From: Natrialba asiatica DSM 12278
GTDB lineage: Archaea; Halobacteriota; Halobacteria; Halobacteriales; Natrialbaceae
DNA: 50,138 bases
Direction of reading: 5' to 3'
Assembly (NCBI RefSeq): GCF_000337555.1
Contig: NZ_AOIO01000038.1
Location: 45,144-95,281, forward strand
A program made the translations under genes and the position numbers. Under the pieces are notes generated by a model. The model was not told where the DNA came from. It did no database searches and saw only the letters and a list, made by a program, of their open reading frames with translations. Positions 25,033-37,931 of the stretch are shown in pieces; position 1 is the stretch's first letter, and each line of letters begins with the position of its first letter.

Positions 25033-25128
25033 CTTCCTGCTGCGAGCAAACCCTCGAGCAGCAGGTGCGTGGATTGACGACGGTTCGAACGACGGAACGA
25101 GCGAACGATAGTGAAGCGAAGTTCAGGC

Positions 25129-25264
25129 GGTTCGAACCCGCCCGAGCCCATTTCTGGACGAACGACAACGAGTTCAGAACTATTTACGAGGGCAGTTCGA
25201 ACCCTATCAGTCGCGCACAGCGTAGCGAGCACGTCTGATTTCGGTTCGAGCCCGCCCGAGTTCA
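25129..25264 (+). repeat. two extra copies of the tRNA-Val 3' end (attachment-site scars)
   Basis: 25129-25150 reproduces the last 22 bases of tRNA-Val exactly (ggttcgaacccgcccgagcc, then ca). 25243-25264 is a second, diverged copy (ggttcgagcccgcccgagtt, then ca). Between them lie short GAGCGAA/AGCGAAG and AGCGTAGCGAGC runs resembling the palindromic inserts elsewhere. The region 25033-25368 has no gene and is best read as remains of elements that integrated at tRNA-Val. Confidence 0.8.
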
Positions 25265-26038: not shown

Positions 26039-26112
26039 GCCGCCTTAGCTCAGACTGGGAGAGCACTCGACTGAAGATCGAGCTGTCCCCGGTTCAAATC
26101 CGGGAGGCGGCA
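26039..26112 (+). tRNA. tRNA-Phe (GAA)
   Basis: 74 bases. Acceptor GCCGCCT pairs with AGGCGGC; the anticodon arm is CTCGA-CTGAAGA-TCGAG with anticodon GAA; the T-loop is GTTCAAATC; the discriminator is A. No encoded CCA. A T-rich TATA-like box (ttttttatg, about 26005-26013) lies 28 bases upstream. Its 3' end recurs at 29383-29403, 30391-30412, 30509-30530 and, degraded, at 30599-30618, so this gene has been the target of repeated integration. Confidence 0.95.
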
Positions 26113-26248
26113 TGGCTTTTTCACTCGGCCAAGATTCACAAACCAGTAGCGCCGTATGGCGATTTTCTCGTGCGCGCTTAGATCTTAGCGTACGAACGAT
26201 CTTCGCGTTCGTCCTCCAGCTATATCCAGAAGAGGATATGTGATTGTA

Positions 26249-26999
26249 TTAGGTTCGATCTCCCTGCTCGTCGCGGATTCGCGCACCTAAGAGGACTTTA
26301 TAACGGTGTCTGAAGCGTCTGAGCCAACGGCGTGCGCTGGCTGGACTGCCCTGCCAGAAGGAGTGAAAGCGGTCAATTCGCATTGAGACGGTCTGAAACC
26401 ACTTTTCGGCGTGGTTTCGGTCGCTGTAATTGAGCTGACCGCTCAATTCGTGGCGAGCGAGGGCAGTCAGATAGCCACCAGCATCGACGAGAAACTCTGT
26501 CTCGTCGAAATCGTGTTTCTCGGTAAGTCGGTGCAAAAACGCTGCCGCGGGATCAGTCCCGCGGCGGCTGTAGACGTCGATTTCGAGCAGTAGCTTCGAT
26601 TCTGTGTCGATTGCGGCGTACAACCACTTTTTCTCGCCATCTACCTCGATCTGTTTCTCATCGACCGCGACCTGCGACGGCTGGGCCGTCCTCAGAACGC
26701 AAAGCGTTCTGATGGGCCGCACGAGAGCGCTGCTCTCGTGGACGTCGGCGGGTCGCTCTGAGCCTCCGAAAGCTTGTGTGTCCAGTTCCAGATTCGCCGT
26801 GAGAACGGTCAATACCAAGTAATTCGAGCACTGCGACGACCTCCCGAACTGACAATCCCATCGAATGCAGTCGCACCCCGAACACCCTTACGGGTGTCGG
26901 GGTGCGCTCGTTCTCCCAAACCTCATCACAGTCCACGTCTAAGCTCTCTCTGAGCAGGTTGGCGAGTTGTATGGACACTTCTCGCCACCACCTGCTCAT
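26249..26999 (-). pseudogene. IS6-type DDE transposase, frameshifted and interrupted
   Basis: Three pieces in different frames. The first runs from MSRWWREVSIQLANLLRESL to ELLGIDRSHGE (about 26999-26800). After a one-base loss comes WNWTHKLSEAQSDPPTS (about 26797-26745). A two-hairpin palindromic insert (26694-26740) containing a stop follows, and then PSQVAVDEKQIEVDGEKKW to the end. The catalytic Asp (VAVDEKQ), second Asp (FLVDAGGYL) and Glu (NHAEKWFQ) can still be read, but no single frame joins them. The C-terminus (RHRYKVLLGARIRDEQGD) departs from the usual family ending, consistent with loss of the left IS end. Confidence 0.82.
26694..26740 (+). repeat. two-hairpin palindromic insert in the dead transposase
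   Basis: Hairpin 26694-26710: perfect stem AGAACGC/GCGTTCT with loop AAA. Hairpin 26720-26740: perfect nine-pair stem CACGAGAGC/GCTCTCGTG with loop GCT. The spacer is nine bases. It splits the transposase between SDPPTS and the VAVDEKQ motif, so it clearly arrived after the IS. Same design as the units in gpmI, metY and the tRNA-Phe att copy. Confidence 0.7.
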
Positions 27000-27042: not shown

Positions 27043-27840
27043 TTAGATCCGTAGTTCTCTAATGAATTCTTCCGATTCCTCGATCAACCTTCGAACTGCA
27101 GCCTCGTTTGGCTCTTCGGGATGAGCGCAGGTTTCCCGAATACTGGCTAGAGCTTTCAGATCGTTCCAAGTGGTCTTGTCAATTTCATCCGCTTCATATA
27201 GCGTCTGAGATAGCCGATTGATTCCATGATTCGTATTGAACTCAGTCACCTCATTAGAGTTCTCGCACATCGTTAGTAAATGGCGTTCAAGAGCAACCGC
27301 TGCGACTACACCACTTGCCCTAGTGAACTCCTCATCAAGTAATTCGCGGGCTCTCTGGATTTCATCTCTACCAATACGCTTGGAGAGTCGTCGTCTTACG
27401 CTCAGTTTTTGCGCTTCAACTCTTGCGGGGATAGCGTTTAGAATATTCCTCTGAATATCGAACCTATCTATAAAGTATCGAAAGGCAGCATCAGTCCCAT
27501 CGGCTGGATCTGGCCTTGATAAATTGACAGTACGATTGATAAGCTTCTGCTGTGGTGAAAAATCACTATATCGACTTGAGAGAAATTCGTTGACTAGCGG
27601 ACTTGCTTTATTATACCATTGTTCATACTTTCGTCGTATTTTTCTCTGAAGAGGTTTTGTTGAGTCGTCTAAAGTACTCCATTCGTACTCTTTGCCGCTG
27701 CCCCTCGACCTTGAGCTATGGATCTTTGTTACATGTCTCTCAACATCAGAAAAGTACTCTTCAGCAAGCGCTTCTATTTCCTCTGCCTCAGATTCCAATG
27801 ACTCTATATAACGACTGATAGATTCAACGTCGGTACTCAT
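27043..27840 (-). CDS. HEPN-like protein, possible RNase/defence factor
   Basis: 265-residue protein, not a family I can name with certainty. Residues 1-60 are a charged helical region (SISRYIESLESEAEEIEALA), likely coiled coil. The C-terminal 120 residues are all helical: GVVAAVALERHLLTMCE, then LYEADEIDKTTWNDLKALAS. They end in SIRETCAHPEEP, where Arg-x4-His fits the R-x4-6-H catalytic motif of HEPN ribonucleases, common in toxin and abortive-infection systems. ATG 27840 lies about 27 bases after gctaattg on the minus strand, a good leaderless promoter. Codon use is much more AT-rich than the core genes, supporting transfer. It lies next to a transposase relic and an integrase. A defence role is inferred. 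Confidence 0.7.
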   Translation of the reverse strand: MSTDVESISRYIESLESEAEEIEALAEEYFSDVERHVTKIHSSRSRGSGKEYEWSTLDDSTKPLQRKIRRKYEQWYNKASPLVNEFLSSRYSDFSPQQKLINRTVNLSRPDPADGTDAAFRYFIDRFDIQRNILNAIPARVEAQKLSVRRRLSKRIGRDEIQRARELLDEEFTRASGVVAAVALERHLLTMCENSNEVTEFNTNHGINRLSQTLYEADEIDKTTWNDLKALASIRETCAHPEEPNEAAVRRLIEESEEFIRELRI

Positions 27841-28261
27841 TTGCTGCGAATGTAGTTTCAATTAGCAAAAAATGACCGATCTTCTCTGAGAGCTAGTCTC
27901 CACTTTTCTGGGCAACGTCCTTCTCGATTCGATATTTCCTGTTGCCTCACAGAGAGGAATCACTGAGAACCGCCTTTTTCACTCCTCTATGAGAGAGTCT
28001 GGTCAAATAGGGAACGCTATCGATTAGATTTTATTCAGGAAGGAGGTGATGAACGCGTCCTGGCTACAGTCCTTGCAGACAGATAACCATTGAGGAGCTT
28101 CTAATGCCATCTTGTGAGTCCTCCCACCCCTCACCATGGCCCTGGGGCAAAGCCTTACCAGGGAAAGACTGGGGACGCGTGGAGGATTCGCGCATATGAT
28201 TTGGCATTGAATCAACCTCCATATTGGAAAAACATGTGCAGTGAAATGTATGTTTCGACGT
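27841..28261. other. 421-base AT-rich stretch, no firm gene
   Basis: Contains the HEPN gene promoter on its left. A 28-codon minus-strand frame at 28024-28110 encodes MALEAPQWLSVCKDCSQDAF plus eight residues. It has a CxxC pair and could be the end of a decayed zinc-binding protein or a very small protein. No promoter or family supports it, so it is noted only. Confidence 0.35.
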
Positions 28262-29288
28262 TTAGATCCCGTTGATGTAGTCCCGTCTTTGTTCGACCTT
28301 CACCTCCTCGTCTCGCTTGTCGTAGTGCTTATCGAGTACATCCTGTCCCACGTTCATCCGATGACTGACGACCTTCTCGGGCACATCTTCGGTCAGGAAG
28401 TTGGTGATCGAGCCCCGCCGGATATCGTGAGGGAAGACATTGATCGGGCATTTGCAGTATCCTCCATATTCAGCAGCTTCGCAGCCATCGGGATCTCGAT
28501 CCTTCGGGCATTCGTTGGAGTAGTAGCAAGGTGAGTGACCTGATAGACCGCATCCCGAATGCTCGAGCGGTTCATCCGTCCATTTCGACTCGTGAGGAGG
28601 GGTTCTCGTCCATACTCATCCTCTACGTCATGGCGATGATGATCCCGCCAGTCCTCAATCACTCGGCAGACTTCAGGACTGAGGGCGATCATCCGCTCCC
28701 CTTCTTGCCCGTTCTTGAGGGGGTATCTGATTCCGGTCTATGACGGAGCGCCAGCCGTTCGTGCTCTTCGTCGTAGTCGTCGAGGTCCAGTGAGTGTAGG
28801 GCTCCGAGTCGAATCCCGGTATGCCATAGGATCTCCATGATGGCGTGAGGGCGTGAGGCGTGCTCGAATTTCCGCTGATACTCGAGCAGAGCCTCTGCCT
28901 GATCGATTTCGAGAAGGCTCTCGCTCTGTTCATCGGACTTATCGAGTTTCGGCATCAGCGCCTCGAATTTCTCGTGAAGATCGGGATCGACTGCATCGAT
29001 AGAACCGCACCAACGGATGAAGATCCGAAGGGCGTCTAGTTGCCCCTCGAGTGAGATCGGCTTTAGATCGCCATCGTCTCTCCGCCAGGTCTTGTATCGC
29101 TGTAGATCCCGACCGGAGAGATCGTTCATATTGTCGATTCGCTCGACGTCCTCGCACCATCGGATGAAGTGCTTGAGACGATAATGATAGCCGTCGAGCG
29201 TACTTTTCGATACCTCTTGTTTCCGCGCTTCGAGGTACATATCCTTCGCCTCAACAGGCGAGATGGGTTCGAGATCGTTCTTCGTCAT
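28262..29288 (-). pseudogene. tyrosine recombinase (integrase), two frameshifts
   Basis: Begins MTKNDLEPISPVEAKDMYLE with a SAM-like core-binding domain (STLDGYHYRLKHFIRWCED). HTGIRLGALHSLDLDD carries the first catalytic Arg. In a run of five G on the plus strand (28719-28723) one base is missing, shifting the frame before NGQEGERMIALSPEV. A second one-base loss near 28535 shifts it before CYYSNECPKDRDPDGCEA. The last piece holds PHDIRRGSITNF (His-x-x-Arg) and VLDKHYDKRDEE with the catalytic Tyr, ending at 28262. All catalytic residues survive across the three pieces. Loss is recent, or the homopolymer shift is a sequencing error. It is the integrase of the tRNA-Phe element. Confidence 0.85.
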
Positions 29289-29321
29289 GGGGTTCACCGA
29301 AGCGCCCATGAGCGTCGGAGC

Positions 29322-29403
29322 GAGCTGTCCCCGGTCCCGTGAGCGGAGCGAACGGGTCCACGGTGAGCTTTGCTCGCCGGAGGTTCAAATCCTGGAGGCG
29401 GCA
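29322..29403 (+). repeat. interrupted copy of the tRNA-Phe 3' end (attR) with palindromic insert
   Basis: gagctgtccccgg (29322-29334) and gttcaaatcctggaggcggc plus a (29383-29403) together equal the last third of tRNA-Phe with one change. They are separated by 48 extra bases. The insert contains two hairpins: 29336-29356 (CCCGT/ACGGG outer stem around gagcggagcga) and 29361-29379 (CGGTGAGC/GCTCGCCG with loop TTT). This shows a palindromic unit inserted cleanly into a known sequence, giving its approximate ends. Confidence 0.8.
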
Positions 29404-37529: not shown

Positions 37530-37931
37530 CTTCGACCTATGAGGACGGACGGTCCCGCCCCCGATCGTGAACGAACCCGAGAGCGTGGCTGAACCGCCGA
37601 CACCGTCGGGTTCTCCAGAAACGTCCCTCCTCCGTCATGAGAGTTCGAATCCGTTCTCGTTCTTCCTTCGAGATGGCCTCACCCGTCGTATCTCCCGACC
37701 CGCTCGCCGGAATCGCAACTGACATTTGAACCAGCCCGACCGGACAGCATTCCGAGGAACTCGAAATTCGAACGTTGAAACCGGGACTCGAACGGGTTCG
37801 AACTGATCCGGACCGCTCACCGCGTTTGCAACCGGCTGCAACTTGCGTATTCGAGTCCGCCTCCGTTCGCTGGTTTGCTCACTGGTTCGCTCGGAGCAAC
37901 TGCTCCCCACGAGTAGTAGTCGAAGAAACAG
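37530..37931. other. 402-base stretch without a gene, next to tRNA-Asn
   Basis: No supported reading frame. Sequences such as ccgggactcgaacgggttcg (about 37781-37800) resemble a worn tRNA T-arm, and GCTCACTGGTTCGCTCGGAGC-like runs near 37880 resemble the palindromic units elsewhere. This could be old attachment-site debris from tRNA-Asn, but the matches are weak. Confidence 0.35.

Follow-up and report, generated by a model that had tools for sequence, protein, structure and literature searches.

Non-autonomous derivatives of integrative elements, including the CIMEs, keep both ends of the element and have lost the integrase. SNJ2-type integrases and their att sites are known from betapleolipoviruses (Wang et al. 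2018, as cited in PMC5867852 and PMC8371274). In related pleolipoviruses, whose integrases are 36-43% identical to the one considered here, the annotated attP measures only 13-15 bp. In the free viruses, att lies 3' of int, as annotated in Halfgib1, Harhisp1 and Humcor2 and as read from the sequence in SNJ2 and HHPV4. For tRNA introns, a model of an intron-bearing attP has been put forward (Sugahara et al. 2012, cited in PMC8371274), in which, as it is related there, an extra insert in the tRNA part of attP enters the tRNA gene as an intron. Integrons line up small cassettes in tandem behind a fixed anchor, attI, each with an imperfect palindromic site, attC, whose core is repeated inverted around a variable hairpin (PMC2727003). 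Finally, the SMR-A repeats of Haloquadratum, which are transposase-free, palindrome-rich, about 110 bp long and of unknown mobilisation, bear terminal inverted repeats and insert into palindromes, namely the near-terminal ones of IS605/PATE (PMC3119063).

The window analysed here, 50,138 nucleotides of contig C38 (45144-95281) of genome G000, contains an interrupted tRNA copy that shares traits with each of these systems. Its components are as follows.

26039-26112, plus strand: intact tRNA-Phe gene (ARAGORN and Rfam RF00005), whose 3' end is the attL-side core
26113-26137, plus strand: left end of the integrated element, TGGCTTTTTCACTCGG..., recurring unchanged at the tRNA-Phe genes of G008 and G058
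28268-29309, minus strand: pseudogene of an SNJ2-type tyrosine integrase, with its ATG at 29309 and at least two frame disruptions
29318-29335, plus strand: left part of the copy of the tRNA-Phe 3' half, GAGCGAGCTGTCCCCGGT
29336-29356, plus strand: hairpin 1, CCCGT-GAGCGGAGCGA-ACGGG, whose GAGCGNAGCGA loop is a GNA triloop flanked by tandem G.A positions
29361-29379, plus strand: hairpin 2, CGGTGAGC-TTT-GCTCGCCG, with an 8-bp stem and a TTT loop
29382-29403, plus strand: right part of the tRNA-Phe copy, GGTTCAAATCCTGGAGGCGGCA, from T loop to discriminator base, the presumed recombination core
29322-29403 (C38:74465-74546), plus strand: the whole unit, termed type 1, matched in the genome at E 3.8e-18 by covariance model R1

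The 3' half of tRNA-Phe (26080-26112) is duplicated at 29322-29403, with its T arm interrupted by two-hairpin DNA, and the integrase pseudogene starts just to the left. The first-pass annotation had described an att copy of the tRNA-Phe 3' end split by two hairpins and adjoining an integrase remnant, and this is borne out; the insert, which it gave as 48 bases, is 49 bp net according to the spacings of the repeats to the tRNA-Phe gene (3242 and 3291). Because GGT is present at both ends of the insert (29333-29335 and 29382-29384), these can be placed only within 3 bp. That these are the readable ends of a recent insertion is not supported. Single-stranded DNA folding yields z = -2.3.

An intact homologue of the integrase, the 349-aa P0001 of G008, carries a phage-integrase catalytic domain (PF00589, E 1.4e-11) and the SAM-like N-terminal domain (PF02899, E 9.4e-7) of SNJ2-type tyrosine integrases, the G000 copy being a pseudogene. 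Open homologues of 341-349 aa are found in G008, G005, G058, G084, G050 and G091, and the integrase is ~45% identical to those of SNJ2 and HHPV4. The likeness to SNJ2-type systems thus comprises the integrase family by sequence, the tRNA 3' end as target and a short att core common to the tRNA 3' end and the element end. The difference lies in the att site, which is here 5' of int and contains the two-hairpin module, whereas in the isolated viruses it is 3' of int, short and module-free. No integron or Xer equivalog model scored above cut-off for the linked integrase. Inside the element, a 272-aa open frame (27043-27861) is without a Pfam or NCBIfam match. Among available relatives that share the downstream gene, the closest is G001, a member of the window's genus. 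There, one type-2 cassette (see below) with the same core at its end precedes the same flank TACCTCTTTT and that gene, without the integrase element. Hence, what follows 29403 is host sequence, and the hairpins are on the element's side.

A DNA search located the integrase-att stretch in other haloarchaea. The att copy beside the integrase is an uninterrupted 33-bp sequence in G005, G050, G052, G091 and G093, whereas in G008, G058, G084, G127 and G134 two hairpins split it at one and the same point of the T arm; uninterrupted copies stand beside integrase genes 80-90% identical (L006, L009). Neighbours in the integrase tree may have either a module-bearing or an intact att, so the module is no strict requirement. 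At least 12 units are immediately 5' of tyrosine-integrase genes, with integrases down to 51-60% identical, and some of the module-bearing units beside integrase genes stand far from any tRNA. In many relatives, two-hairpin units follow tRNA-Phe at a distance of 40-250 bp, and the neighbourhood lacks an integrase. The type-1 unit, 91 nt in most genomes and 82 nt in G000, runs from tRNA positions ~27-52 through hairpin 1, a short linker, hairpin 2 and GTTCAAATCC to the acceptor strand. The decisive evidence that it is not a product of chance is comparative: full-length matches to the covariance model (E < 1e-12) occur in ~60 of 391 haloarchaeal genomes of the order, in several families, and none was detected outside the order in a 120-genome sample of the phylum. 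Units built alike also follow tRNA-Tyr (L121-L124 and others) and tRNA-Pro (L163, L165). The two-hairpin module is inherited rather than freshly inserted: it holds this T-arm position in dozens of host arrays too, with stem changes that are compensated. No free attP with the module was found in viral contigs by pattern or in plasmids and phages by DNA search, plasmid matches to the hairpins alone lacked the tRNA core, and viral contigs yielded no relatives of the integrase. Two further settings may be mentioned. A dispersed repeat, GGGACTCAAAGGGGCAGTCGCGA-TTCCCGCGAGCGNAGCGAGCGGGAAGTCGAGAGACGAAGTCTCTCGGAAGGACGAAGC, carries the same module outside a tRNA context in several copies per genome (L112-L119; G091, G295, G080), and in G393 a degenerate full-length tRNA-Phe-like copy (L131, 439-520, reverse strand) has the two-hairpin module in its T arm.

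According to the first-pass annotation, the hairpins are a palindromic unit inserted into the att copy; such a unit would be a small mobile element like the SMR-A repeats. The 3-bp GGT repeat at the insert ends and the insertion of SMR-A repeats into palindromes (PMC3119063) agree with this, and two-hairpin units do insert in the genus, as seen in the region 26687-26746 of the window:

26691-26742: 52-bp two-hairpin insertion in the remnant of an IS6-type transposase (DDE_Tnp_IS240), with a 4-bp CGTC direct repeat

This unit is present in G000, G004 and G002 and absent from G001, G027, G022 and G019. By comparison of these loci it is a true small palindromic insertion, better suited to defining element ends than the tRNA-Phe copy, for which the standing of best case had been claimed; that claim fails, as the module of the copy is inherited and holds the same T-arm position in relatives. 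A recent palindromic insertion is largely refuted by the latter observation, and because the shared two-hairpin pattern recurs at this position in ~60 genomes and at three tRNA types, insertion can at most have been an ancient founding event, which the GGT/GGT repeat marks at best. An inserted SMR-A-like element is thus very unlikely. A frequent REP-like repeat of G000 was likewise discarded, the exact loop motif GTGAGCGNAGCGAAC occurring only twice in 4.4 Mb.

When the DNA behind tRNA-Phe is cut at each copy of the tRNA 3' end, it resolves into units of 100-180 bp, hereafter cassettes, which lie directly behind the tRNA and each end in such a copy. Type-1 cassettes consist of a T-rich left end, tRNA ~27-52, two hairpins and the core, and type-2 cassettes of a left hairpin, an inverted copy of the core, a hairpin and the core. 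The 25-bp left ends of the integrated elements in G000, G008 and G058 have a mean identity of 0.52-0.54 to type-1 left ends, compared with 0.29-0.31 to type 2 and 0.27-0.29 to shuffled sequences. At least one cassette was present at 35 of 66 tRNA-Phe loci in an unbiased sample. In three haloarchaea searched by one method, 36 of 89 tRNA genes have a cassette behind them (8/30, 14/29 and 14/30; a few of these matches are weak, such as Ala(cgc) in G000, and may be due to chance), against 0/89 in the upstream control and 1/58 in two non-haloarchaeal genomes (0/27 and 1/31). In G000, the tRNAs concerned include Gly(tcc), Val(tac), Val(gac), Val(cac), Arg(tcg), Arg(cct) and Glu(ttc), with weaker evidence for Pro(tgg), and every cassette ends in the 3' end of its own tRNA. 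Two are found in the window behind tRNA-Val(tac):

25034-25150, plus strand: type-2 cassette 1, terminated by a copy of the 3' end of tRNA-Val
25151-25264, plus strand: type-2 cassette 2, with a degenerate core

Behind tRNA-Asn, on the minus strand at 37845-37858, an inverted copy of the T loop and a partial copy of the 3' end are probably what is left of a decayed type-2 cassette.

Cassette ends match the tRNA with an identity of ~0.9-1.0 across their final 16 nt in type 2 and 21 nt in type 1, beyond which identity drops sharply, a limit comparable to the 13-15 bp of the viral attP. The inverted core is present in 78 of 88 tRNA-Phe type-2 cassettes, as against 21% of shuffles, and fits the cassette's own, local tRNA better than the ends of other tRNAs (permutation 1/20000 and 0/10000).

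In layout, the cassettes resemble those of integrons (PMC2727003): small tandem units with an imperfect palindromic site each and a fixed anchor, and a core repeated inverted around a variable hairpin, clearly in type 2 and only partly in type 1. In contrast to integrons, they are anchored at a tRNA gene rather than attI and have neither an integron integrase nor a cassette gene. Like CIMEs, they keep both element ends and have lost the integrase; they differ in being only ~136 bp long, with a single core, in tandem arrays and at many tRNA genes per genome. SMR-A repeats are similar in size, but cassettes start at tRNA 3' ends and not within IS605/PATE palindromes. As the integrase-attI platform of integrons is lacking and the SMR-A target differs, the cassettes are classed as a variant of tRNA-targeting integrative elements.

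The arrays turn over unit by unit. In genus g33, genomes share the sequence beyond the array (~80-88% over 400-500 bp), beginning at a core boundary in several pairs, and the arrays themselves read type 1-type 1 in G064, type 2-type 1 in G304, type 2-type 1-type 2 in G162 and type 1-type 2 in G361. Genomes of one genus with a shared flank thus differ in the number, type and order of cassettes, and some units are 95-98% identical between different families. In G082 (L062, 503-720), the second cassette joins a type-1 left part to a type-2 right part at GAAGATCGA/TTTGAAC, which suggests recombination between cassette types. Elsewhere (L154, 754-1148, in G269; L106 in G107), different versions of the module are adjacent, and three identical 122-bp type-2 cassettes stand in a row; near-identical neighbours could alternatively have arisen by homologous recombination or slippage.

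The hairpins themselves are oriented. All 111 GAGCGNAGCGA loops of tRNA-Phe cassettes are on the tRNA-sense strand, none on the other, and the apex base is free (A 34, C 32, G 26, T 19); a looser motif, in cassettes of all tRNA types in the three genomes, is also commoner on the tRNA-sense strand (39 versus 7). The oligonucleotide d(GCGNAGC) forms an unusually stable DNA minihairpin, a stability that would suit recognition of folded single-stranded DNA. The strand bias would also fit host RNA features, namely co-transcribed tRNA 3' trailers or tRNA-like minihelices, which RNase Z might cleave where the 3' end is copied. Consistent with these, cassettes always have the orientation of the tRNA and start at its 3' end, and the type-2 inverted-core stem shows G.T in excess of A.C (55 versus 16). 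In type-1 stems, however, the two are balanced (~26 versus 25, one fixed column left out), so that overall these counts favour neither DNA nor RNA; moreover, the presence and order of cassettes vary between species at the same locus, some units lie beside integrase genes far from any tRNA, and Rfam has no match to the cassettes, all of which makes an RNA role rather unlikely.

Compensated changes are seen in both hairpins (29 cells versus 0 of 500 shuffles, with all slid controls lower). Between G000 and G002, a stem of the 26691-26742 unit also differs by a compensated change (G-C to A-T), although the gene there is broken, and mutation by quasipalindrome correction can keep palindromes perfect (for an example, see PMC7202029). 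The covariation therefore supports the palindrome and is by itself no proof of function. The same dead gene favours reading the cassettes as att scars, passive remnants of successive integrations and deletions with functionless hairpins kept by such correction, and tandem att remnants are indeed expected at tRNA genes. Drift, on the other hand, would hardly keep a uniform size of 100-150 bp, a start precisely where the tRNA ends, the cassette's own core in inverted copy and a loop motif confined to one strand with 10 of 11 positions fixed, so passive scars appear distinctly improbable.

With moderate confidence, we instead regard the two-hairpin units as arms of att sites, and the cassettes as non-autonomous mini-elements, of tRNA-targeting integrative elements, with hairpins that are perhaps recognised in folded form. 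The interrupted copy in the window would be the integrase-side attachment site of a decayed element that targeted tRNA-Phe. In this integrase lineage, attP would have a 16-21 bp core corresponding to the tRNA 3' end, flanked on its integrase side by the two-hairpin module. The tRNA gene is intact in every case and never takes up the module; strand exchange therefore probably takes place within the core, on the right-hand side of the module, which would keep the reconstituted tRNA gene whole and leave the module with the element. The arrangement resembles the attP with an extra insert in its tRNA part as cited from Sugahara et al. (2012), except that the insert in that model becomes an intron of the tRNA gene, whereas here it stays outside. 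The same att architecture without an integrase would constitute the single-core cassettes arrayed in tandem behind tRNA genes. Such integrases may mobilise these cassettes in trans, or the cassettes may recombine through their cores, and their hairpins probably act as folded DNA.

Several observations weigh against the cassettes as mini-elements. Neither an excised circle nor an integration event was observed, free viruses with related integrases have a short, module-free attP 3' of int, and the link to integrase genes was made for type 1 only, no partner integrase having been seen for most type-2 cassettes. How a cassette gains a core that matches the local tRNA is left unexplained by the model. 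A bolder version, which we consider unlikely, is that haloarchaeal tRNA genes host an integron-like system of tiny single-core cassettes in tandem. The att sites would fold as single-stranded hairpins, with GNA minihairpins at the tips and the core pairing with its inverted copy; a tRNA-targeting tyrosine integrase would recombine them, and the tRNA 3' end would play the role of attI.

Rfam returned only tRNA, together with sub-threshold matches antisense to tRNA-Phe genes, and contains no curated family for the cassettes. No description of tRNA-anchored hairpin cassettes was found in the open-licence literature, although an earlier one may exist elsewhere, and the words hairpin and cassette do not occur in a review of archaeal tyrosine recombinases (PMC8371274). 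As far as could be found, the cassettes thus form a large, undescribed family, present at ~40% of the tRNA genes that were examined in the three haloarchaea. For the annotation of genomic islands, this means that interrupted copies of tRNA 3' ends in haloarchaea represent a regular architecture and not chance insertions. If the cassettes are RNA features, they would make up an unannotated tRNA-linked RNA family. If they are mobile, they would be a widespread, unnamed class of mini-elements that use tRNA ends as landing sites while leaving the tRNA unbroken, and recombination at folded sites would become testable in archaea.
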